Source: Synechocystis sp. LKSZ1 (lineage in GTDB: Bacteria; Cyanobacteriota; Cyanobacteriia; Cyanobacteriales; Microcystaceae). From it: 64,000 nt of DNA. This document shows positions 4,519 through 15,596 of the stretch, in pieces. Made by a program: the position numbers and the translations under genes. The notes beneath the pieces were generated by a model, which had not been told where the DNA came from, ran no database searches, and worked only from the letters and a program-made list of their open reading frames with translations. Positions within the stretch are counted from its first letter, which is position 1, and each line of letters begins with the position of its first letter. The stretch is from NCBI RefSeq assembly GCF_040436315.1, contig NZ_AP031572.1, forward strand, positions 1,302,001-1,366,000. The letters are read 5' to 3'.

Positions 4519-4527
4519 TGTTATAAT
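4519..4527 (+). promoter_or_regulatory. Extended -10 promoter for the riboswitch-transporter transcript
   Basis: The sequence TGTTATAAT is a perfect TGnTATAAT extended -10 element. No good -35 box is seen 17 bases upstream, as is usual for extended -10 promoters. Transcription would begin near 4534, which is just at the 5' edge of the riboswitch aptamer, supporting both calls. Confidence 0.65.
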
Positions 4528-4534
4528 CCTCTGC

Positions 4535-4692
4535 ATCTCGTTAGCCGAGTTTAGGCCGAAAAGCCTAAAGCGGGGGACCCAAACCAAGGGGCGTATCTGG
4601 TTCAACCTCGTCAGTCCAGAAAATCGAGGTTTTTCTAGAGGGACATCTCTCAGTCCTAGTCCGACAGCTAACCCCGTAGGCATAGAGAGGAA
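4535..4692 (+). promoter_or_regulatory. ydaO/yuaA-type riboswitch (c-di-AMP aptamer)
   Basis: The conserved blocks of the ydaO/yuaA class are present in order. AAGCGGGGGACCC at 4568-4580 follows the hairpin TTTAGGC/GCCTAAA (4550-4569). GGGGCGTATC lies at 4589-4598. GTCCGACAGCTAACCCCGTA lies near 4660-4678, and GAGAGGA follows at 4684. CTCTC near 4647 can pair with GAGAG. These match the well-known Bacillus subtilis ydaO leader nearly base for base in the core. The class binds cyclic di-AMP and usually lowers expression when bound. The expression platform is uncertain. Downstream there are a 4-bp hairpin with a T run near 4694-4716 and a 7-bp hairpin TAGACCG/CGGTCTA at 4738-4754. The next gene starts at 4786. 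Confidence 0.92.
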
Positions 4693-4785
4693 ACTGAGGA
4701 ATCAGCATTTTTAATGACTTGATATCATCAGTATCCCTAGACCGCATCGGTCTATATTGTCCTGCCTTGATTTTGGTGTACGGCG

Positions 4786-5631
4786 ATGTCAATTCAACTT
4801 AATCTTTCCGTGATTTCTGTTGCAGTGAGTTCAACTTGGCGGAAATCTAAACCCTTTATTTTACAAGACACCTTTCTCTATCCTTTGCTCGGCTTTACAG
4901 GGGTTATTCTCCTCTGGTGGGCAGTGGCCCTCGTTCGTCATGAAATGATGCCGACACCACCAGAAGCTCTGATGAGTAATCTGGATTTGATCATCAATCC
5001 TTTTTATCGACGAGGCCCTGGTGATTTAGGCCTAGGGTGGCTATTACTGGCGAGCTTAACTCGGGTTTGTATTGGTTTTTTACTAGGTGCCATCGTAGCC
5101 GTTCCCCTTGGTTTCTTAATTGGGATCTCCCGTCCAGCCTGGCTCGTATTTAACCCAATTATCCAAGTTTTTAAACCCGTTTCTCCTTTGGTTTGGTTGC
5201 CCATTGCGTTAGCAATTTTCAACGCCGCTGAACCCTCAGCAATTTTTGTGATTTTTATTACCTCTCTTTGGTCAACCATTATCAATACGGCAGAAGGTGT
5301 TTCTAATGTTCCCAAGGATTATTTAGAAGTGGCCCAGGTTCTGGAAATGCCTCGCTGGAAACAATTGGTCAAAATTGTTCTACCTGCTAGTTTGCCCTAT
5401 ATTTTCACAGGATTACGGATCAGTTTAGGCATTGCCTGGCTAGTGATTGTCGCCGTTGAGATGCTGACCGGTGGTATTGGTATTGGCTTTTTCGTTTGGG
5501 ATGAGTGGAATCGCTTGAATGTGAGTTCTGTTTTCCTCGCAGTATTTGTGATTGGTATAACGGGTCTGATATTAGACTATGCCCTAGCAAGCCTGCAAAT
5601 GGCCGTCACCCATCGCCCAGCTAAACGCTAG
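4786..5631 (+). CDS. ABC transporter permease, NrtB/CmpB/SsuC type
   Basis: This is a 281-residue inner-membrane permease with about six membrane helices and the BPD_transp_1 (EAA) loop, seen as GVSNVPKDYLEVAQVLEMPR near residue 170. It matches the nitrate/bicarbonate/sulfonate/taurine permease family. N-terminal residues 1-28 are cytoplasmic. It is the first gene after the c-di-AMP riboswitch and is separated by 14 bases from the binding-protein gene, with the ATPase next, so the three form one transporter. No clear Shine-Dalgarno sequence precedes the ATG. The substrate cannot be decided from sequence: nitrate, nitrite, bicarbonate, cyanate or an organic sulfonate are all possible for the family. 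Confidence 0.9.
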   Translation: MSIQLNLSVISVAVSSTWRKSKPFILQDTFLYPLLGFTGVILLWWAVALVRHEMMPTPPEALMSNLDLIINPFYRRGPGDLGLGWLLLASLTRVCIGFLLGAIVAVPLGFLIGISRPAWLVFNPIIQVFKPVSPLVWLPIALAIFNAAEPSAIFVIFITSLWSTIINTAEGVSNVPKDYLEVAQVLEMPRWKQLVKIVLPASLPYIFTGLRISLGIAWLVIVAVEMLTGGIGIGFFVWDEWNRLNVSSVFLAVFVIGITGLILDYALASLQMAVTHRPAKR

Positions 5632-5645
5632 TAGGAGTACTTGTG

Positions 5646-7040
5646 ATGAAGAATACTTGGACAAGGCGGGCCTTTCTACAGGCCTGCGGCGCGACGGCAG
5701 CGGTAGCTAGTCTCTCTAGCTGTAGTTCTTCTCCCTCCCCTAATCAAATACATCGCCAAGCTGAATTACAACCGCCCGTAGTCGATCCCGCCACGCTAGA
5801 AAAGCCGAATTTAACCGTAGGCTTTGTGCCGGTCAATGACTGTGCCCCCTTTGCAATTGCCTGGGAAAAGGGTTTCTTTCACAAATACGGTTTAAATGTA
5901 AAGCTGAGTCGGGAGGCCAGTTGGGGAAATTCCCGTGACGGCATTATTTTTGGCCGTCTTGACGCTTCCCCTGTTGTCTCTGGGGCCGTCACCAATGCTC
6001 GTCTCGGTGCAGAAGGGGCACGACACTTCCCTCTCTGTGCTGCTATGACTATCCATCGTCACGGCAACGCAATTACCTTTAACCAAGGGCTATGGGATGC
6101 TGGCGTTCGGCCCTGGCAAGACTATCAAGGCGATCTGCCTCGTTTTGGCCAGGATTTGAAACGTTACTTTGCACAAGTGCCCCTCGATCAACGGGTCTTT
6201 GCAGTAGTGCTGAGTTCTTCTATCTATGAATACTTTGTTCGCTACCTAGTCGCTGCCGCAGGGGTCGATCCCATCCAAGAATTTCGCGTCATTATTACCC
6301 CGCCCCCCCAAATGGTGAGCAATATGCGCATGGGAGCAATGCAGGCCTATATGGTGGCGGAACCCTGGAATACCCGAGCGATTACAGGCAATGAGGGCAT
6401 TGGTTTTACCTTTGCCCAGGGCCGAGAAATTTGGCAGGGCCATCCCGACCGCGTGCTAGCAGTTTCCCAGACTTTTATCGACCAGTATCCCAAAACCTAT
6501 CGTTCTCTGGTGAAGGCCATGATCGAGGCCTGCCAATATTGCAGTCGGCCTGAAAACCGGGCGGAGGTAGCTCGGATTATTTCCCAACGGGCCTTTACCG
6601 GGGCTAAGGACAAATATACGAAACCCGGTATTGTGGGGGACTACAACTACGGTGGCTTTGATGATAAACCCCGCTGGCGGGACAACATTGACACCACCAT
6701 TTTCTTTGAGTTGCCCCCCGAATTGGTCCAGATTCCCCATGATCATTCCACCTTTCTCTGGCAATCCCAGGGCCTGTGGTTAATGACCCAAGCCACTCGT
6801 TGGGGCCAGGTGCGAGAGCTTCCAGCCCAGGCGGATACGATTCTGCGTCAGGCCTGGCGTACAGATCTCTATCGAGAAATTGCAACGGAAATGGGGATTC
6901 CTTGTCCGGCAGAAGACTACAAAGTTGAGCCAGCCGACAGGTTTATTGATCAACGTTCCTTTGATCCCAGTAATCCCAATGGCTATATTCAGAACTTTGA
7001 GATTCGCGCCCATCGCCCTCTAATTTTTGCCTTGTCTTAA
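5646..7040 (+). CDS. NrtA/CmpA-family ABC substrate-binding lipoprotein
   Basis: The N terminus has a twin-arginine-like TRRAFL sequence, a hydrophobic stretch and a lipobox ending LSSC, so the protein is probably exported and lipid-anchored. The mature part begins with TVGFVPVNDCAPFAIAWEKG and includes SREASWGNSRDG and AEPWNTRAI, which are characteristic of the NrtA (nitrate) and CmpA (bicarbonate) family. At 464 residues it has the length of those proteins. The ATG at 5646 is chosen over the GTG one codon earlier because AGGAG lies 8 bases upstream. The partner permease precedes it and the ATPase follows. The ligand is not determined, and a NrtC-type fused ATPase is absent. Confidence 0.88.
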   Translation: MKNTWTRRAFLQACGATAAVASLSSCSSSPSPNQIHRQAELQPPVVDPATLEKPNLTVGFVPVNDCAPFAIAWEKGFFHKYGLNVKLSREASWGNSRDGIIFGRLDASPVVSGAVTNARLGAEGARHFPLCAAMTIHRHGNAITFNQGLWDAGVRPWQDYQGDLPRFGQDLKRYFAQVPLDQRVFAVVLSSSIYEYFVRYLVAAAGVDPIQEFRVIITPPPQMVSNMRMGAMQAYMVAEPWNTRAITGNEGIGFTFAQGREIWQGHPDRVLAVSQTFIDQYPKTYRSLVKAMIEACQYCSRPENRAEVARIISQRAFTGAKDKYTKPGIVGDYNYGGFDDKPRWRDNIDTTIFFELPPELVQIPHDHSTFLWQSQGLWLMTQATRWGQVRELPAQADTILRQAWRTDLYREIATEMGIPCPAEDYKVEPADRFIDQRSFDPSNPNGYIQNFEIRAHRPLIFALS

Positions 7041-7071
7041 AAATTTACTCTTGTGTTCATTGAGGTATCCC

Positions 7072-7551
7072 ATGGTTCGTTCCAATACCCTTAATTTTGC
7101 CTCCTCAGAGCATTTTTCCCCCAATGACGGCTTTTTAGTCGTCGAAAATGTTTCCAAATCCTTTACTAAGCCCGATGGCAGTCCTTTTACCGTTCTTGAA
7201 GACATTAATTTAACCGTTGGCACGCAGGAATATGTATCAGTCATTGGCCATTCTGGTTGCGGAAAATCAACCCTCCTACGCCTAGTAGCGGGTTTAGACC
7301 GGCCGACCTCGGGCTTGATTACCCTAGAGGGCAAGGCCATTCGCAAACCGGGAGCAGAGCGGATGATGGTGTTTCAGGGATATTCTTTACTGCCCTGGCT
7401 AACGGTGCGGGAAAATGTGCGCTTAGCGGTGGATGAGGTCTTTAAAAAAATGAGTCCCGGAGAAAAAAATAAGGTCGTTGATGAGCATTTGGCCATGGTT
7501 AATCTCTTGCCTGCCGCCGATAAATATCCCCATGAGCTATCAGGGGGATGA
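7072..7551 (+). CDS. ABC transporter ATPase, N-terminal part (split NrtD-like)
   Basis: This 159-residue piece carries the Walker A motif GHSGCGKST, the Q-loop (MMVFQGYSLLPWL) and the first four residues of the signature, LSGG, where a TGA ends the frame. The other half of the ATPase starts in the -1 frame at 7548, overlapping by ATGA. Joined after the GGA codon with a one-base backward step, the two give LSGGMKQRVGVARAL, exactly the conserved sequence. The start at 7072 is supported by GAGG seven bases upstream. The split lies within a run of five G. A lost G, a sequencing error, a -1 frameshift or coupled re-initiation are all possible. Confidence 0.85.
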   Translation: MVRSNTLNFASSEHFSPNDGFLVVENVSKSFTKPDGSPFTVLEDINLTVGTQEYVSVIGHSGCGKSTLLRLVAGLDRPTSGLITLEGKAIRKPGAERMMVFQGYSLLPWLTVRENVRLAVDEVFKKMSPGEKNKVVDEHLAMVNLLPAADKYPHELSGG

Positions 7552-7898
7552 AGCAAAGGGTCGGTGTGGCCAGGGCCTTGGCAACTCGTCCTAAAATGTT
7601 GCTATTAGATGAACCCTTCGGAGCGCTAGATGCCCTGACGCGGCCCAAACTACAACAGCAGGTTTTGGATATTTGGGAGAATCATCGCCAGGCCGTGATG
7701 ATGATTACCCACGATGTTGATGAGGCCATTTTTATGTCCGACCGGGTGGTGATGATGACCAATGGCCCTGGCGCAGTGATTGGCAAGGTGATGGAAATTA
7801 ATTTACCCCGTCCTCGCGACCACCATGCGCTTCGGGAAACGACGGAATACTATGAACTGCGGAATCAGGCCTTGGATTTTCTAGAACGTTACCAGTAA
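7548..7898 (+). CDS. ABC transporter ATPase, C-terminal part (split NrtD-like)
   Basis: This frame begins MKQRVGVARAL, the continuation of the ABC signature. It carries Walker B (MLLLDEPFGALDA), the D-loop and the H-loop His in MMITHDVDEA. Together with 7072-7551 it makes about 275 residues, the normal size of NrtD-like ATPases. The ATG overlaps the TGA stop of the first half, so translational coupling could make two polypeptides, but no two-chain ABC ATPase split at this point is known to me. The gene ends 71 bases before kdpA and I see no terminator in that gap, so read-through into kdp is plausible. Confidence 0.85.
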   Translation: MKQRVGVARALATRPKMLLLDEPFGALDALTRPKLQQQVLDIWENHRQAVMMITHDVDEAIFMSDRVVMMTNGPGAVIGKVMEINLPRPRDHHALRETTEYYELRNQALDFLERYQ

Positions 7899-7969
7899 AT
7901 ACAGCTCTATTTATTGAGTGATCAAGCATCAAGACTTAATGCCAGTCACCTAGGCAAACCAAAACAAAA

Positions 7970-9718
7970 ATGTTACAAGGTTTTTTTCAAATTGCGCTGA
8001 CCCTCGTGATTGTGGTCGCCCTTATGCCCTTTCTCGGTCGCTATTTAGCTCGCGTATTTCTGGCAGAAAAAACGATTTTTGATTCTCTTTTATTACCCAT
8101 AGAGAGATTGATTTATCGCTTTCTGCAAGTTTCTCCTACCGACAGTATGACGGGTTGGCAATACGCCAGAGCCATTCTGCTCAGTAATGGGGCCATGGCC
8201 GGATTGATTTTTGCGATGATTGCCCTCCAGCAATATCTGCCCCTGAATCCGACGGGCATCCCGGCCCCTACTTGGGATACAACCCTGCACACGACGATTT
8301 CTTTTATTACGAATACCAATCAACAGCACTATTCTGGTGAAACCTATCTGAGCTATGGTGCGCAAATGTTGGGTCTTGGTTACCTCATGTTTACCTCTGC
8401 GGGGACAGGCATTGCGGTGGCCATTGCCTTTATCCGGGGCCTGACGGGGCGGCCCTTGGGCAATTTTTACCGGGATTTGGTGTTATCCATCACTCGTGTC
8501 CTGTTACCGATTAGCATCGTTGGGGCCTTGCTGTTAATGTTAGCTGGCGTGCCGGAAACCCTAGACGGGCCTGTCGTGGTTCCTACCCTAGAAGATCCCA
8601 GTTTGAGCCAGGCCATTGCGCGGGGGCCAGTAGCTCACTTTGAAATCATCAAGGAACTGGGAGAAAATGGCGGGGGCTTTTTTGCGATCAATTCGGCCCA
8701 TCCCTTCGAGAATCCCAATGGCTTGGCCAATCTGATTCAGCTTGTCGCCATTCTTGCTATCCCCACTTCGCTGATCTATACCTACGGTGTCTTCACTCAA
8801 AATCTGCGTCAGGCCTGGTTAATTTTTCTGGTTCCCCTGGGGATTTTAATCGGTTTTACCGTGATTACAGTGATGGGAGAATACAACGGCAATCCTGCGG
8901 TCAATGCCCTGCTGGGGGGGCTGGCTCCGAACTTGGAAGGGAAGGAAGTCCGCTTTGGCTGGGCCCAGTCGGCCCTCTACGCCGTTGTCACCACTGCCAC
9001 GATGTGCGGGGCCGTTAATAGTCTGCATGACTCCTTTATGCCAACGGGGGGGTTTGCCACCTTGGCTAATATGTTCCTACAAATCGTCTTTGGTGGCCAG
9101 GGAACAGGAACAGCCTATCTCTTTGCCTACCTGATCTTGGCGGTCTTCGTCACCGGCCTGATGGTCGGACGGACCCCTGAATTTTTGGGCCGTAAGATTG
9201 AAAAGCGAGAAGTGGTGTTAGCCAGTTTCCTGATCTTGCTGGTGCATCCCATTGCGATTTTGATTCCGGCGGCTATCGCCATGGCCTTTCCCGATTTCCA
9301 AGGCATTAGTAATCCCGGCTTTCATGGCCTTTCCCAGGTGATTTATGAATATGCCTCTGCGGCGGCCAATAATGGTTCGGGCTTGGAAGGCCTGGGGGAT
9401 TCCCAACCCTCGCCCTTGGCCCTGGCCACCGGCGCTAAGCCAACGGTGACGGCCCTGTGGTGGAACTTGAGTACAAGCTTTAGCCTACTGGTGGGGCGTT
9501 ATGTACCCATCATTGCTTTATTGTTGCTGGCCGATGGCATGGCCCGCAAACAACCCGTCCCCACAACCATTGGCACTCTCCGCACCGATACCGTTCTATT
9601 CACCGGTATAACCGCAGGCGTCATTTTGATCATGGGGGCCTTAACTTTCTTCCCCTGGCTGGCCCTGGGCCCAGTTGCTGAGGCCTTCCAAATTGCTAGC
9701 GGCACCAGCCCTACCTAG
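7970..9718 (+). CDS. kdpA: Potassium-transporting ATPase, channel-like subunit KdpA
   Basis: KdpA binds and passes K+ in the KdpFABC complex of the plasma membrane. The 582-residue protein has about ten hydrophobic helices. The four selectivity-filter regions are visible as [36 protein letters not shown] and [11 protein letters not shown]. It is slightly longer than the roughly 560 residues of the Escherichia coli protein. It opens the kdp gene group and follows the riboswitch-led ABC transporter genes by only 71 bases. A repeat element interrupts the space between it and kdpB. Confidence 0.97.
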
Positions 9719-9855
9719 ATCCCAAGAAGTTAATCCTAAGCCGCTCAAGCAGAACAAAACCATCGACCCCACCCGTCCTCCCCTTGCCAAGGGGCGGTGC
9801 CGTAGGCGGAGGGGTAAAGAGAAGGATCTGTCGCCCTAATTTAAAGGATTGAGAT
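9719..9855. repeat. MITE-like dispersed repeat, copy 2, between kdpA and kdpB
   Basis: The core at 9765-9818 matches 51 of 54 bases of the copy at 4317-4370, with a central hairpin CCCCTT-GCC-AAGGGG. Flanking similarity continues on both sides (CTAATTTAAAGGATTGAGAT on the right matches the right end of copy 1), while the left terminal repeat is more decayed. The element fills nearly the whole kdpA-kdpB gap and would be transcribed as a stable hairpin within the operon message. Exact ends are uncertain. Confidence 0.7.
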
Positions 9856-9870
9856 AAAACAGTTATCGCT

Positions 9871-12021
9871 ATGGAAACACCTGAACCGTCTCCTGTTACG
9901 AACCCCCCTCGCCGTCCCAGAGGGCCAAGGGAATCACGTCGCCATACGCCTAAAGTTAACCGCCAGGGCCTCTATCAACGGGCAATTCAGGCCGCTTTTT
10001 TCAAGCTAGACCCCCGTATTGCGGTTCGCAATCCCGTCATGTTTGTAGTCTGGCTGGGAACCCTCATTACCCTTTTTCTGACCCTAGACCCTAATCTCTT
10101 CGGTACCATTCCCAGTGATCCCAACCAGCAACGCATCCTGAATGGTCTGATCACCATTATTTTGTTTTTGACTGTCCTCTTTGCTAACTTTGCGGAGTCT
10201 GTTGCTGAGGGCCGAGGGAAGGCCCAGGCGGAGTCCCTGCGCTCCACTCGGCAGGATACCTACGCCCGTAAACTCCTGGCGGATGGCACGATTCAGGAAG
10301 TCAGTTCCACGGCCCTGCGTCAGGGAGACCAGGTGAAGGTAGTAGCGGGAGACCTGATCCCCGCCGATGGGGAAGTGATCCAAGGCATTGCTTCGGTGGA
10401 TGAGTCGGCCATTACCGGAGAATCGGCCCCTGTTTTGAAGCAACCGGGAACAGACATTATGAGTTCGGTAACGGGGGGAACCCGTCTCGTTTCCGATGAA
10501 CTGATTGTGCGGATTACCCAAGATCCAGGCCAGGGATTTATCGACCGCATGATCGCCCTGGTGGAAGGGGCTGAACGGACGAAGACCCCCAATGAAATTG
10601 CCCTCACGGTTCTGTTGGTGGTGCTCACTCAGGTTTTCTTGATTGTGGTGGCCACTATCCCGCCTTTTTCGAGCTACATTGCCGATTTTGTCGCCAGTCT
10701 GCTGGGAGAAGCTGCGGGGAATAGTCTGCGGGCTGGCTCGACCATTGCTATTTTGATCTCCTTGCTGGTGGCCCTGATTCCCACTACCATTGGCGGCTTG
10801 CTCAGTGCCATCGGCATTGCTGGCATGGACCGGGTGGCCCAGTTTAACGTGATTGCGACCTCTGGCCGGGCCGTCGAGGCCTGCGGTGACATCAACACCC
10901 TCGTTTTGGATAAAACGGGAACCATCACCCTCGGCAATCGTTTGGCCGATGAATTTATTCCTCTTAACGGTCATGACTGCCAAGAAACGGCCCAGATTTG
11001 CTATGCCGCTAGCGTCTTTGATGAAACCCCTGAAGGGCGCTCTATTATTCAACTAGCAGAAAAAATGGGGGCCGCCCTCAACATCGATATCAGTCAAGCT
11101 GAGGGGATCGAATTTTCAGCTCGTACCCGCATGAGTGGCACCGATGTGGGCAGTCATGAATATCGTAAAGGAGCCGTAGATGCCATCAAGGGGTTTGTGC
11201 GTTCTCGGGGTGGGCAAGTGCCCGAGGGCCTAGACCAGGCCTACGAAAAGGTATCTCGTTTAGGAGGAACACCGCTGGCGGTCTGTCGGGATAGCGATAT
11301 CTATGGGGTTATTTACCTCAAGGATATTGTCAAACCTGGCATCAAAGAACGCTTTGACCAACTGCGGCGCATGGGAGTCAGAACTATTATGCTGACGGGG
11401 GATAACCGGATTACGGCCTCGGTGATTGCCCAGGAAGCCGGAGTGGATGACTTTATTGCCGAAGCCACCCCAGAGGACAAAATTCAGGTGATCCGCACAG
11501 AACAGGAAAAGGGCAAACTGGTGGCCATGACGGGGGATGGCACGAACGATGCGCCGGCCCTAGCCCAGGCCAATGTGGGCCTAGCCATGAACTCCGGCAC
11601 CCAGGCCGCGAAGGAGGCTGCCAACATGGTTGATCTCGATTCTGACCCGACGAAACTGATCGACCTAGTGACCATTGGTAAACAATTGTTGATTACCCGA
11701 GGGGCCCTGACCACCTTTTCCATCGCCAACGATATTGCCAAATACTTTGCCATTATTCCCACCATCTTTGCGGCGGCCGGCATTGGGGCCTTGAATATTA
11801 TGAGTCTGGAGAGTCCCCAGTCGGCCATTCTTTCAGCGCTCATCTACAACGCTCTGATTATTCCGGCTCTGATTCCCCTGGCCCTGAAGGGGGTGCAGTT
11901 TCGTCCTTTAACGGCAGATCAATTACTCCAACGCAACATGCTGATTTATGGCCTGGGGGGAATTATTGCACCCTTCATCGCCATTAAGGTGATTGATTTA
12001 ATGCTTTCACCCCTGCTCTAA
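9871..12021 (+). CDS. kdpB: Potassium-transporting ATPase, P-type ATPase subunit KdpB
   Basis: KdpB hydrolyses ATP to drive K+ import through KdpA. Visible landmarks are the actuator loop AITGESAP, the phosphorylation motif DKTGTIT with its Asp at residue 347, the nucleotide-domain segment MLTGDNR, and the hinge [16 protein letters not shown]. Length is 716 residues, with an extra proline- and arginine-rich cytoplasmic tail of about 35 residues at the N terminus before the first membrane helix. It is separated from kdpA by a repeat element, and from the small kdpG by 44 bases. Confidence 0.97.
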
Positions 12022-12065
12022 GTACCCATGGTTCAATCCTACCTATTTACGTTCAGGTGACTGTG

Positions 12066-12335
12066 ATGAAATACCCGCGATTACCGTTAACCAACCCTGT
12101 GGCCCAGATCTCAGAGGTCTTTTCTATCCTGGGGTCTGCGGCCCAGCGGCAGAAATTACCGCGCTATCTCTTCCTGGGTCTTTGCTTGAATTTAATCCTG
12201 GCCCCAGTGGTCTATGGCGCCACCGGCGATGCCCTCAGTCGCCATCAGGCCTGGGCCCTGGGCCTATTGTTGATCGGCACCCTTAGCCTGTCCGTCTATC
12301 TCTTTTTTGTGATGTTTCTCCCGGAGAAGTTCTAA
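12066..12335 (+). CDS. kdpG: Small Kdp membrane subunit (KdpG/KdpF-like)
   Basis: This 89-residue protein has two hydrophobic segments, YLFLGLCLNLILAPVVYGA and a C-terminal one ending SVYLFFVMFLPEKF. The second resembles the single helix of KdpF, which stabilises the KdpABC complex. In cyanobacteria such as Anabaena a larger gene called kdpG takes the place of kdpF in a kdpABGCD order, which is the order found here. The ATG at 12066 is preferred to the GTG at 12057 because AGGTGA lies five bases upstream of it. Its stop codon overlaps the kdpC start (TAATG), so translation is probably coupled. Confidence 0.8.
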   Translation: MKYPRLPLTNPVAQISEVFSILGSAAQRQKLPRYLFLGLCLNLILAPVVYGATGDALSRHQAWALGLLLIGTLSLSVYLFFVMFLPEKF

Positions 12336-12985
12336 TGAGTTTTTCGCGTGAAATCAGTCGGGCCCTGCGAGCAACCTTTCTGCTTTGGGTACTCACAGCA
12401 GTCCTCTATCCTTTGGCCATGCTGGCCATCGGCCAAACCCTTATTCCCTACCAGGCCAATGGTAGCTTGCTGAAAAATGCCCAGGGAACCGTTGTCGGCT
12501 CGGCCTTGATTGGCCAACCCTTCACCAGTGAGCGCTACTTTAACAGTCGCCCTAGTACAACCAATTACAGCACGGCAAACCCCCAACAGGATGAGGCCCT
12601 GGTCTTAAAAACTGGGGTATCCGGGGCGAGCAACCTGGCCCCGAGTAATCCGGCCCTGCTAGAGCGTATCCAGGGAAAACCCGATCCTGACTCTCAAAAG
12701 GCCATCGCCGGAGCCATTCCCCAATTAAAGGCCGCTGGTATTCCGCCAACCGCCGACTTGGTATATGCCTCCGGTTCTAGTCTTGACCCCCACATCACCC
12801 CTGAAGCCGCCCAGGGCCAGATTACCAGGGTAGCAAAGGCCCGAGGCCTCTCAGCCAGTCAACTGGAAGAGCTAATTCAAAGCAATATCGATGGCCGTTT
12901 CCTCGGTATTTTTGGAGAACCGGGGGTGAATGTGCTGAAACTGAATCTTGGTCTAGACCGTTATTCCACAGAGCAAACAAAGTGA
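12335..12985 (+). CDS. kdpC: Potassium-transporting ATPase subunit KdpC
   Basis: KdpC is the single-span periplasmic subunit that raises nucleotide or K+ affinity of the Kdp pump. Residues near 10-32 form the membrane anchor (FLLWVLTAVLYPLAMLAI). The conserved SGASNLAPSNPAL and SGSSLDPHITPEAA motifs are present. The length of 216 residues is slightly above the usual 190. Its start overlaps the end of kdpG and its stop overlaps the GTG start of kdpD, indicating a tightly coupled operon. Confidence 0.96.
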   Translation: MSFSREISRALRATFLLWVLTAVLYPLAMLAIGQTLIPYQANGSLLKNAQGTVVGSALIGQPFTSERYFNSRPSTTNYSTANPQQDEALVLKTGVSGASNLAPSNPALLERIQGKPDPDSQKAIAGAIPQLKAAGIPPTADLVYASGSSLDPHITPEAAQGQITRVAKARGLSASQLEELIQSNIDGRFLGIFGEPGVNVLKLNLGLDRYSTEQTK

Positions 12986-14064
12986 TCAGTCAGCGGCGGG
13001 GCAGACATAAAATCTTTATCGGCATGGCCCCAGGGGTCGGTAAAACCTTCAAGATGCTGGAGGAGGCCCAGGACCTCAAAGAGGAAGGGATCGATGTGGT
13101 GATTGGCCTCTTGGAAACCCATGGCAGAGAAGAGACTGCTGAACAAGCGGAAGGGTTAGAACAAATTCCACGTCAACGAATTGCCTGTGGGGAAAAGTTT
13201 CTGACCGAAATGGATACGGAGGCGATTGTCCAACGCTCACCGAAACTGGCCTTGATTGATGAACTGGCCCATACTAATGTGCCGGGATCTGTGAGAGAAA
13301 AACGCTACCAGGATGTCGAAGTGATCCTAGCGGCGGGAATTGATGTCTATTCCACCGTCAATATTCAACACATCGAAAGCTTGAATGACCTAGTGGCCAA
13401 AATTACCGGGATTGTGGTGCGGGAACGCATTCCCGACCGAATTTTGGAAGAAGCCAATGAAATTGTGGTTGTGGATGTCACCCCAGAAACCCTAGAAGAA
13501 CGCCTTCTAGAGGGAAAGATCTACGCCCCGGAGAAAATTCAAACGGCCCTCACCCATTTTTTCCAACGGCGTCACCTGATTGCCCTACGGGAACTGGCCC
13601 TGCGAGAAGTTGCGGATACCGTCGAAGAGGACGGCAACCATTCGCCCTCACCTTCACCCACCTGGAGTATCCATGAGCGCGTCATGGTCTGTGTTTCCAC
13701 CTATGCCCATTCCCTGCGTCTGCTCCGGCGAGCCGGCCGCATTGCCAATTATATGAATGCAGAACTCATTGCTATTTTTGTGGATAAACCGGATGCTTTT
13801 CTGACCAAGGCTGAAACCCTGCACCTGGAAACCTGCGAGCGCATCTGCCGGGAATTTGGGGGCCAATTTCTGCGGGTGACCAGCCACGATATTCCCCAAG
13901 CGATTGCCGACATGGCCGAACAAAAACGGATTACGCAGATCGTGATTGGGGAAAGTCAACAGGCCCGTTGGCCTCGTTTTTTTCGTCGTTCCTTTACCCA
14001 GCGCCTGATGGATCTCATTTGGCATAAAAATATTGACCTCCACATCATCGCCACAGAAAAGTGA
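12982..14064 (+). CDS. kdpD: Truncated KdpD: sensory domain plus universal stress domain, no kinase
   Basis: The first 210 residues are the KdpD N-terminal domain with Walker A GMAPGVGKT and the DELAHTN segment. Residues from about 230 to 360 are a universal-stress-protein (USP) domain, starting ERVMVCVSTYAHS and ending IIATEK. The membrane helices, GAF and histidine-kinase domains of full-length KdpD are absent, and no kdpE response regulator follows. Such short KdpD proteins of about 365 residues are known from Anabaena. The GTG start overlaps the kdpC stop. In Staphylococcus the KdpD USP domain binds c-di-AMP, but whether this one does is untested. Confidence 0.92.
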   Translation: MISQRRGRHKIFIGMAPGVGKTFKMLEEAQDLKEEGIDVVIGLLETHGREETAEQAEGLEQIPRQRIACGEKFLTEMDTEAIVQRSPKLALIDELAHTNVPGSVREKRYQDVEVILAAGIDVYSTVNIQHIESLNDLVAKITGIVVRERIPDRILEEANEIVVVDVTPETLEERLLEGKIYAPEKIQTALTHFFQRRHLIALRELALREVADTVEEDGNHSPSPSPTWSIHERVMVCVSTYAHSLRLLRRAGRIANYMNAELIAIFVDKPDAFLTKAETLHLETCERICREFGGQFLRVTSHDIPQAIADMAEQKRITQIVIGESQQARWPRFFRRSFTQRLMDLIWHKNIDLHIIATEK

Positions 14065-14109: not shown

Positions 14110-14118
14110 TTGGCGTAA

Positions 14119-14195
14119 AGCTAGGGGTGTCTAGGCAACTAGGCTGAGAAAAACCCTTAGAACCTGAGCCTGGGTAATACCAGCGGAGGGAAGCT
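14119..14195 (+). promoter_or_regulatory. TPP (THI element) riboswitch of thiC
   Basis: The thi-box core is clear: GGGGTGTC near 14124, GGCTGAGAAAAACCC (14142-14156), AGAACCTGAGCCTGGGTAAT (14160-14179) and ACCAGCGGAGGGAAGCT. The outer helix pairs AGCT at the start with AGCT at the end. Riboswitches of this class bind thiamine diphosphate and lower expression of thiamine synthesis genes. The thiC start codon is 22 bases downstream, so sequestration of the ribosome site (GAGGA at about 14202) is a likely mode; I see no clear terminator. Confidence 0.96.
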
Positions 14196-14204
14196 GTTTA
14201 TTGA

Positions 14205-15596
<1,392 letters not shown>

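Follow-up and report, generated by a model that had tools for sequence, protein, structure and literature searches.

A c-di-AMP riboswitch aptamer recurs before an NrtA/CmpA-family ABC importer in Cyanobacteria and precedes kdp genes in Synechocystis sp. LKSZ1

Introduction

Cyclic di-AMP (c-di-AMP) sets K+ and osmotic balance, and to our knowledge few of its RNA targets in Cyanobacteria have been followed up. A stretch of 64,000 nucleotides (nt) from Synechocystis sp. LKSZ1 (NZ_AP031572.1, positions 1,302,001 to 1,366,000; hereafter the window) raises the question of what such an RNA controls there, as an aptamer of the c-di-AMP (ydaO/yuaA) class is followed on the same strand by the genes of an ATP-binding cassette (ABC) importer of the NrtA/CmpA family and then by the kdp genes of a K+ pump. 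Does the aptamer serve the importer, the pump or both, and is the importer a nitrate or bicarbonate transporter, as its family name implies? We found that the pair of aptamer and ABC importer recurs in many Cyanobacteria and is not a local arrangement. For the window, we propose with a probability of about 0.6 that the importer cassette and the downstream kdp genes form one transcription unit, starting from an extended −10 site at 4519 and governed by the c-di-AMP riboswitch. Riboswitches of this kind are already known on kdp, and in cyanobacteria (PMC6488665, PMC10117731; papers are cited here by PMC number).

Results

The aptamer and its promoter

The leader contains the following elements:

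4519..4527, plus strand: extended −10 promoter-like site TGT-TATAAT, read from the sequence, its end 5 bases before the aptamer
4533..4694, plus strand: c-di-AMP (ydaO/yuaA) riboswitch aptamer (RF00379, full model 1-134, 67.6 bits, E 1.6e-13, cut-off 38)
4689..4736, plus strand: platform hairpin E1, which begins at the 3′ tail of the aptamer (47 leaders aligned)
4729..4759, plus strand: competing hairpin region E2, which shares CAGTATCC with E1

An earlier sequence-only reading had claimed a genuine ydaO/yuaA aptamer with an extended −10 promoter of its own, and both the full-length Rfam match and the TGT-TATAAT site bear it out. The consensus scan that we used for promoters and terminators, limited to sigma-70-type sites, listed no −35 for the leader promoter, and the extended −10 is missing from its list because no −35 fits. 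When the roughly 40 nt preceding each of the 56 permease-leading aptamers (window included) were compared, an exact TATAAT turned up in 5 and a copy with one mismatch in 20.

For comparisons within the phylum, we aligned the window aptamer with 39 of the 103 aptamers no longer than 160 nt (alignment A1) and worked with a covariance model, R1, built from 40 cyanobacterial aptamers, which gives the window aptamer 111 bits, its own sequence being part of the model. A pseudoknot between loop and tail covaries across the 40 cyanobacterial aptamers: 95.8% of the alignment cells are paired, 16 show changes on both sides (3.8 in shuffled and at most 8 in slid controls), and none of 500 shuffles reached the observed values in any of five measures. 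The window retains this pairing (CTCTC/GAGAG), which has its place in published c-di-AMP riboswitch structures. The genome encodes a diadenylate cyclase (PF02457, 137.9 bits), and from its sequence the aptamer at 4533-4694 would be expected to bind c-di-AMP.

The aptamer leads the same importer in many Cyanobacteria

Four reading frames follow the leader:

4786..5631, plus strand: ABC permease, NrtB-type (TIGR01183, ntrB, 241.5 bits, cut-off 209)
5643..7040, plus strand: substrate-binding protein (SBP) of the NrtA/CmpA family (PF13379; TAT_signal model; lipobox-like Cys27)
7072..7551, plus strand: N-terminal half of the ABC ATPase (TIGR01184, profile 1-118), its start picked by eye, stopping at a TGA inside the LSGG-MKQR junction
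7548..7898, plus strand: C-terminal half of the ABC ATPase (TIGR01184, profile 119-230), beginning at an overlapping ATG

To see how this cassette is accompanied elsewhere, we took the best 80 of 198 SBP matches in named records, chosen blind to RNA; 78 of these loci were usable, two (L034 and L063) being cut at a contig edge. In 74 of these 78 the R1 model placed an aptamer ahead of the permease at less than 700 nt (median distance 101 nt), and two more loci have one at 877 and 1340 nt; in the remaining two (L008 and L029) the model found no aptamer before the permease. A second survey, whose sample overlaps the named set, covered 386 genomes of the phylum, with an SBP threshold of E up to 1e-110. 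Its counts are lower bounds, as at most eight (aptamer) or four (SBP) first-look candidates were scored per genome. At least 93 genomes hold an Rfam aptamer match and at least 55 an SBP match, and an aptamer precedes 48 of the 55 SBP matches at a distance of no more than 2.5 kb, in one case with a score below the Rfam cut-off. Two of the seven SBP matches that lack an aptamer are only 44% identical and are probably paralogues. The aptamer list comprised 164 entries plus 2 from this genome; it excludes three matches that fall short of the Rfam cut-off (28.5-29.9 bits), two of which were restored for the check upstream of the SBP, where one counts among the 48.

The same picture emerges when the aptamers are taken as the starting point. 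Among 159 whose downstream genes were read, 56 lead the permease (a few of these without an SBP or ending at a contig edge) and 2 lead kdpA. The largest clusters in the first two frames behind the other 101 are a CitMHS/ArsB-like transporter and a protein that matches Usp, and cation P-type ATPases and a CPA2 antiporter occur there as well; each cluster was identified from one tested member, and the locus comparison covered all but 7 of the 147 listed regions. Among the papers listed we recognized no description of the link between aptamer and cassette, nor of the joint unit of ABC genes and kdp, as judged from titles and the openings of abstracts. Two papers cite Nelson for genes that transport and make osmoprotectants in cyanobacteria (PMC4284465; PMC5986932), and either Nelson 2013 or the regulon tables behind PMC3766115 may list the cassette, so we do not claim the link to be unpublished.

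A second c-di-AMP aptamer is often close by. Of the 80 SBP loci, 20 have one no more than 700 nt downstream of the ABC ATPase (e.g., L066:12355-12494), and in the 17 riboswitch-centred loci with two aptamers the next protein belongs to the Usp-like cluster in all 17 and the protein behind that one to the CitMHS/ArsB-like cluster in 8. The genome studied here also has another c-di-AMP aptamer elsewhere (L003:583-5231; G000:C1:2137082 onward), before a cation P-type ATPase like PMR1/SERCA and then a CitMHS/ArsB-like transporter. A review states that slr0753 of Synechocystis has a c-di-AMP riboswitch (PMC10117731), which is of the same class as the window aptamer but has a different target, and we take the unit of P-type ATPase and CitMHS/ArsB-like transporter to be of the putative slr0753 type.

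Hairpins between the aptamer and the permease

We aligned 47 of the 56 permease-leading leaders (alignment A2), leaving out eight as near-duplicate, long or oddly spaced and one (L174) for a long insert. E1 covaries across them: 88.3% of its cells are paired, a share that never exceeds 45.5% in slid controls, and the cells changed on both sides number 39, compared with 13.8 after shuffling; the window forms 17 of the 19 pairs. E2 is built on UCAGUGUCC bases that E1 also uses, and 91% of its cells are paired across the leaders. In the window it reads TAGACCG-CAT-CGGTCTA (4738-4754) and can be extended by CAGTA/TATTG, a different hairpin in place of the usual E2. At least five T occur in the eight bases after E2 in 34 of the 47 leaders, window included (about 10 in a simple shuffle). 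Two hairpins that share bases, with a T-run behind them, are, as far as the sequence can be read, the layout of mutually exclusive hairpins. As covarying helices, E2 and a third hairpin, E3, were rejected, the covariation test being unsupportive.

The kdp genes and the gap before them

Directly downstream of the ATPase frames lie:

7899..7969, plus strand: gap of 71 bases between ATPase and kdpA, with no consensus promoter or terminator listed and without a TATACCTTGT-like element
7970..9718, plus strand: kdpA (TIGR00680, 752 bits)
9871..12021, plus strand: kdpB, with TGES at 182 (TIGR01497, 1126 bits)
12057..12335, plus strand: kdpG, with a KdpF-like C-terminal stretch (PF09604, 33.2 bits; no NCBIfam match)
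12335..12985, plus strand: kdpC (NF010607, 305.7 bits)
12982..14064, plus strand: short kdpD, with KdpD and Usp domains and no histidine kinase (PF02702, PF00582)

KdpA, KdpB and KdpC all score above curated cut-offs (752, 1126 and 220 bits in that test). The gene names and coordinates of kdpABGCD, 71 bases after the ABC genes, hold as first read, and so does the statement that no terminator is visible between 7898 and 7970, where the scan lists neither terminator nor promoter. This argues only weakly against a promoter in the gap, since the counts of the scan over the region equal those of shuffled sequence. Co-transcription of the importer and kdp genes is the simplest reading, although there is little evidence against a private kdp promoter, and control of kdp by the aptamer leader is likely.

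Elsewhere, 8 of 20 relatives hand-picked from 132 kdpA loci (L244, L245, L252, L253, L254, L256, L258 and L260) have an element like TATACCTTGT (at most one mismatch) upstream of kdpA by about 80-230 bases, perhaps a response-regulator site. As a kdpA promoter element it is a weak candidate, which we rejected, as only 8 of the 20 have it and the distances vary.

The genome survey does not show the order of riboswitch, ABC genes and kdp to be general in Cyanobacteria. Of the 386 genomes, 100 carry kdpA, and among the 49 with both kdpA and an SBP match (one of which, G175, was counted by its 44% match) the two lie within 20 kb of each other in this genome only; the recurring part is the aptamer-ABC pair. 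An aptamer less than 4 kb upstream of kdpA was likewise seen for 1 of 132 kdpA genes, that of this genome. Other encounters are arranged differently. In two species of one related genus (L087 and L090, family sample) kdpA stands directly behind the aptamer. When flanks of up to 10 kb were read for the 80 SBP loci, kdpABC turned up in one, a Geminocystis locus (L009) with another order, kdpABC preceding the aptamer-ABC group and kdpD following it; in L173 kdpD follows the aptamer-ABC group. The aptamer therefore meets kdp genes more than once, in various arrangements. The window kdpA shares about 80% identity with its counterparts in several other genera and 66-67% with the copies of two congeners, which means that it has not simply followed the history of the genus. 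While thiC and a pentapeptide gene were found in all five members of the genus (this one included), no other query gene from the window was found in the roughly 1.5 kb that flank them in the congeners, and no empty site could be read there.

A short KdpD ends the operon

The best NCBIfam match of the window KdpD, NF038185 (409.8 bits), falls below its cut-off of 550; the protein retains the Walker A motif GMAPGVGKT, and KdpB retains TGES. The short KdpD of Deinococcus geothermalis, a serine kinase, has the same composition (KdpD and Usp domains, no histidine kinase, Walker A, TGES in KdpB), and c-di-AMP stimulates its phosphorylation of KdpB (PMC11018627). The same source notes, for some Bacillota, riboswitch control of kdp alongside a short KdpD, and KdpD of S. 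elongatus binds c-di-AMP (PMC5897029). As the window kdpD is of the short form, c-di-AMP may control Kdp twice, with regulation by KdpD suggested by analogy.

The pocket of the substrate-binding protein

The sequence-only reading had assigned the importer to the NrtA/CmpA type and considered uptake of nitrate or bicarbonate. The label stands, given PF13379, TIGR01183 and the matches in the PDB, where the nearest sequences to the SBP are the SBP-like domains of CmpC/NrtC, followed by NrtA and CmpA. The uptake does not follow from it, as the pocket is changed and the genome has separate paralogues that we take to be NrtA-like and CmpA-like (our own assignment, from pocket residues and other sequence features). 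Two fused paralogues share 39-40% identity with the SBP, and four others, including the NrtA-like and CmpA-like ones, share 31%. Like NrtABCD and CmpABCD, the system has an SBP and permease of this family, the SBP of Tat (twin-arginine translocation) type; unlike them, it has an unfused ATPase, the order permease-SBP-ATPase, a changed pocket and an upstream c-di-AMP aptamer. The ATPase halves match ATPase models only, with no fused SBP-like domain, and the fused paralogues lie elsewhere in the genome.

In NrtA, nitrate is contacted by W102, Q155, H196, G240 and K269 (PMC13204499). For the pocket we used an alignment with the NrtA-like paralogue, in which the distances between H, G and K, as counted by hand, fit that numbering; an automatic search for the full five-residue spacing matched none of the seven paralogues. 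Only the tryptophan is kept in the window SBP (Trp94), the counterparts of H196, G240 and K269 being Tyr195, Ala239 and Arg270, and Q155 aligns with His140 or Asn142, a column that is uncertain by two residues. These tyrosine, alanine and arginine residues and the other aligned pocket residues are invariant in 27 aligned cassette sequences, as is Cys27. CmpA departs from NrtA at His196 and Lys269 (PMC8786288). The CmpA-type Gln and Glu, as read from the CmpA-like paralogue, are not present either, Tyr and Arg standing in their place, and apart from Trp and perhaps Asn the remaining pocket residues also differ from that paralogue. With these pocket residues changed, nitrate and bicarbonate would be unlikely substrates. 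An AlphaFold2 model of the SBP (mean predicted local distance difference test score, pLDDT, 55.9) was too low in confidence for a fold search.

Discussion

The unit usual in many Cyanobacteria consists of aptamer, permease, SBP and ATPase; in this lineage kdp lies directly downstream and would be transcribed from the same leader. With K+ and c-di-AMP both low, the aptamer would lend its 3′ tail to the formation of E1, the leader would be read through, and importer and K+ pump would be made. When K+ is sufficient, c-di-AMP would close the aptamer and its loop-tail pseudoknot, weakening E1, and the competing E2 region would then halt transcription or translation. A second brake, acting on KdpB at the protein level, would come from the short KdpD encoded last in the operon. 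We infer the OFF direction from Bacillus thuringiensis, where a ydaO aptamer likewise heads a kdp operon (kdpFABC) and acts as an OFF switch (PMC6488665); the same paper cites predicted aptamers before K+ transporter genes, kdp among them, in phyla that include Cyanobacteria. The leader of B. thuringiensis has a canonical intrinsic terminator, whereas the window has an NrtA-family cassette first, a covarying E1 and a weakly supported E2. The cargo of the importer is most likely a solute or counter-ion for osmotic and K+ balance, not nitrate or bicarbonate. More tentatively, this unrecognized importer would be a main target of c-di-AMP riboswitches in Cyanobacteria, bringing in a solute or counter-ion that is needed together with K+ when c-di-AMP is low, with importer and K+ pump fused here into one unit and KdpD as the second brake.

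Several observations weigh against this proposal. The slid controls of E1 themselves give 15-33 cells changed on both sides, the number of E1 pairs with such changes does not exceed that in shuffles, 185 of 500 of which attain it, and the shuffles ignore the relatedness of the leaders. For E2, covariation was looked for across the leaders and none was supported, and E3 has no clear support there. The T-run after E2 is weak in the window, and blocking the aptamer tail alone leaves E1 in the predicted fold. The start codon can be paired in the leader fold, as would suit a different mode of control, an ON switch included. With E2 replaced and the start codon pairable, the mechanism is less certain here than in the relatives. 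The adjacency of ABC genes and kdp in only one genome of 49 means that selection for joint control is not shown, and the absence of the TATACCTTGT element before the window kdpA is shared by 12 of the 20 relatives. In the KdpD motif of Firmicutes, (A/G/C)XSXSX2N(Y/F), three of five positions agree by eye, C-x-S and F being present and the second S and N absent. Finally, the frame of the ATPase is broken by one base at 7545-7551, in a G run at the LSGG motif, with the halves overlapping by ATGA, so the importer may be inactive or a base miscalled.

Which other explanations do these points favour? The riboswitch might serve the ABC cassette only, with a kdp promoter in the 3′ end of the ATPase or in the gap and their closeness an accident. 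That the adjacency is unique among the 49 genomes agrees with this, as do the kdpA loci of the 20 relatives, which hold no aptamer and presumably have promoters of their own, and the reach of a scan restricted to sigma-70-type sites whose counts do not exceed those of shuffles; the common strand, the 71-base gap with no promoter or terminator listed and the missing upstream element of the 8 relatives speak for a shared transcript instead, and we consider a separate kdp promoter somewhat unlikely. The split ATPase suggests another possibility, namely that the ABC transporter is decaying here, leaving the leader to serve, in effect, only kdp. Elsewhere the two ATPase halves share a reading frame (55 of 56 riboswitch-centred loci, with this genome the odd one out, and 79 of 79 in the overlapping named set). 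The three congeners in the phylum sample yielded no SBP match at E up to 1e-110, and the G+C of permease and ATPase, though not that of the SBP, lies below that of kdp and the flanks. The permease and SBP frames are nevertheless intact and keep their conserved residues. For the break itself, a genuine lesion, a miscalled base in the G run and a tolerated split, with both ATGA-overlapping halves perhaps translated, all come into question; decay seems rather doubtful.

The remaining two alternatives concern the direction of the switch and the cargo. In the minimum-energy fold TATTGTC pairs with GGCGATG over the start codon, in competition with the extended E2, which would suit an ON switch or a purely translational one in this genome; the OFF switch of B. 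thuringiensis and the T-rich stretch after E2 in most leaders stand against it, and we think it unlikely. Should the importer carry nitrate or bicarbonate, c-di-AMP would directly join nitrogen or inorganic carbon uptake to that of K+. TIGR01183 does call the permease a nitrate transporter, above its cut-off, and the SBP matches NrtA, CmpA and the SBP-like domains of NrtC/CmpC, but the nitrate contacts are changed, invariantly so among the 27 sequences, and the genome has NrtA-like and CmpA-like paralogues besides. An NrtA-type name can also mislead, as NrtT of X. citri binds alkanesulfonates (PMC5623697). We regard this as quite improbable. With the aptamer on the same uncharacterized importer at 74 of 78 loci, the substrate is directly testable, and a transporter automatically named for nitrate would enter an osmotic regulon. 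The window operon offers, in one construct, a test of common control of importer and K+ pump.

Two further features of the region deserve mention. The G+C content is 0.45 in the permease (4786-5628) and 0.47 in the ATPase (7027-7548), compared with 0.51-0.58 in kdp and the flanking genes and 0.53 in the SBP, and the low values may reflect a different origin. Directly after kdpD, a thiamine pyrophosphate (TPP) riboswitch (RF00059, 64.9 bits) at 14113-14208 leads thiC, so that the kdp and thiC units stand as two riboswitch-led units head to tail.

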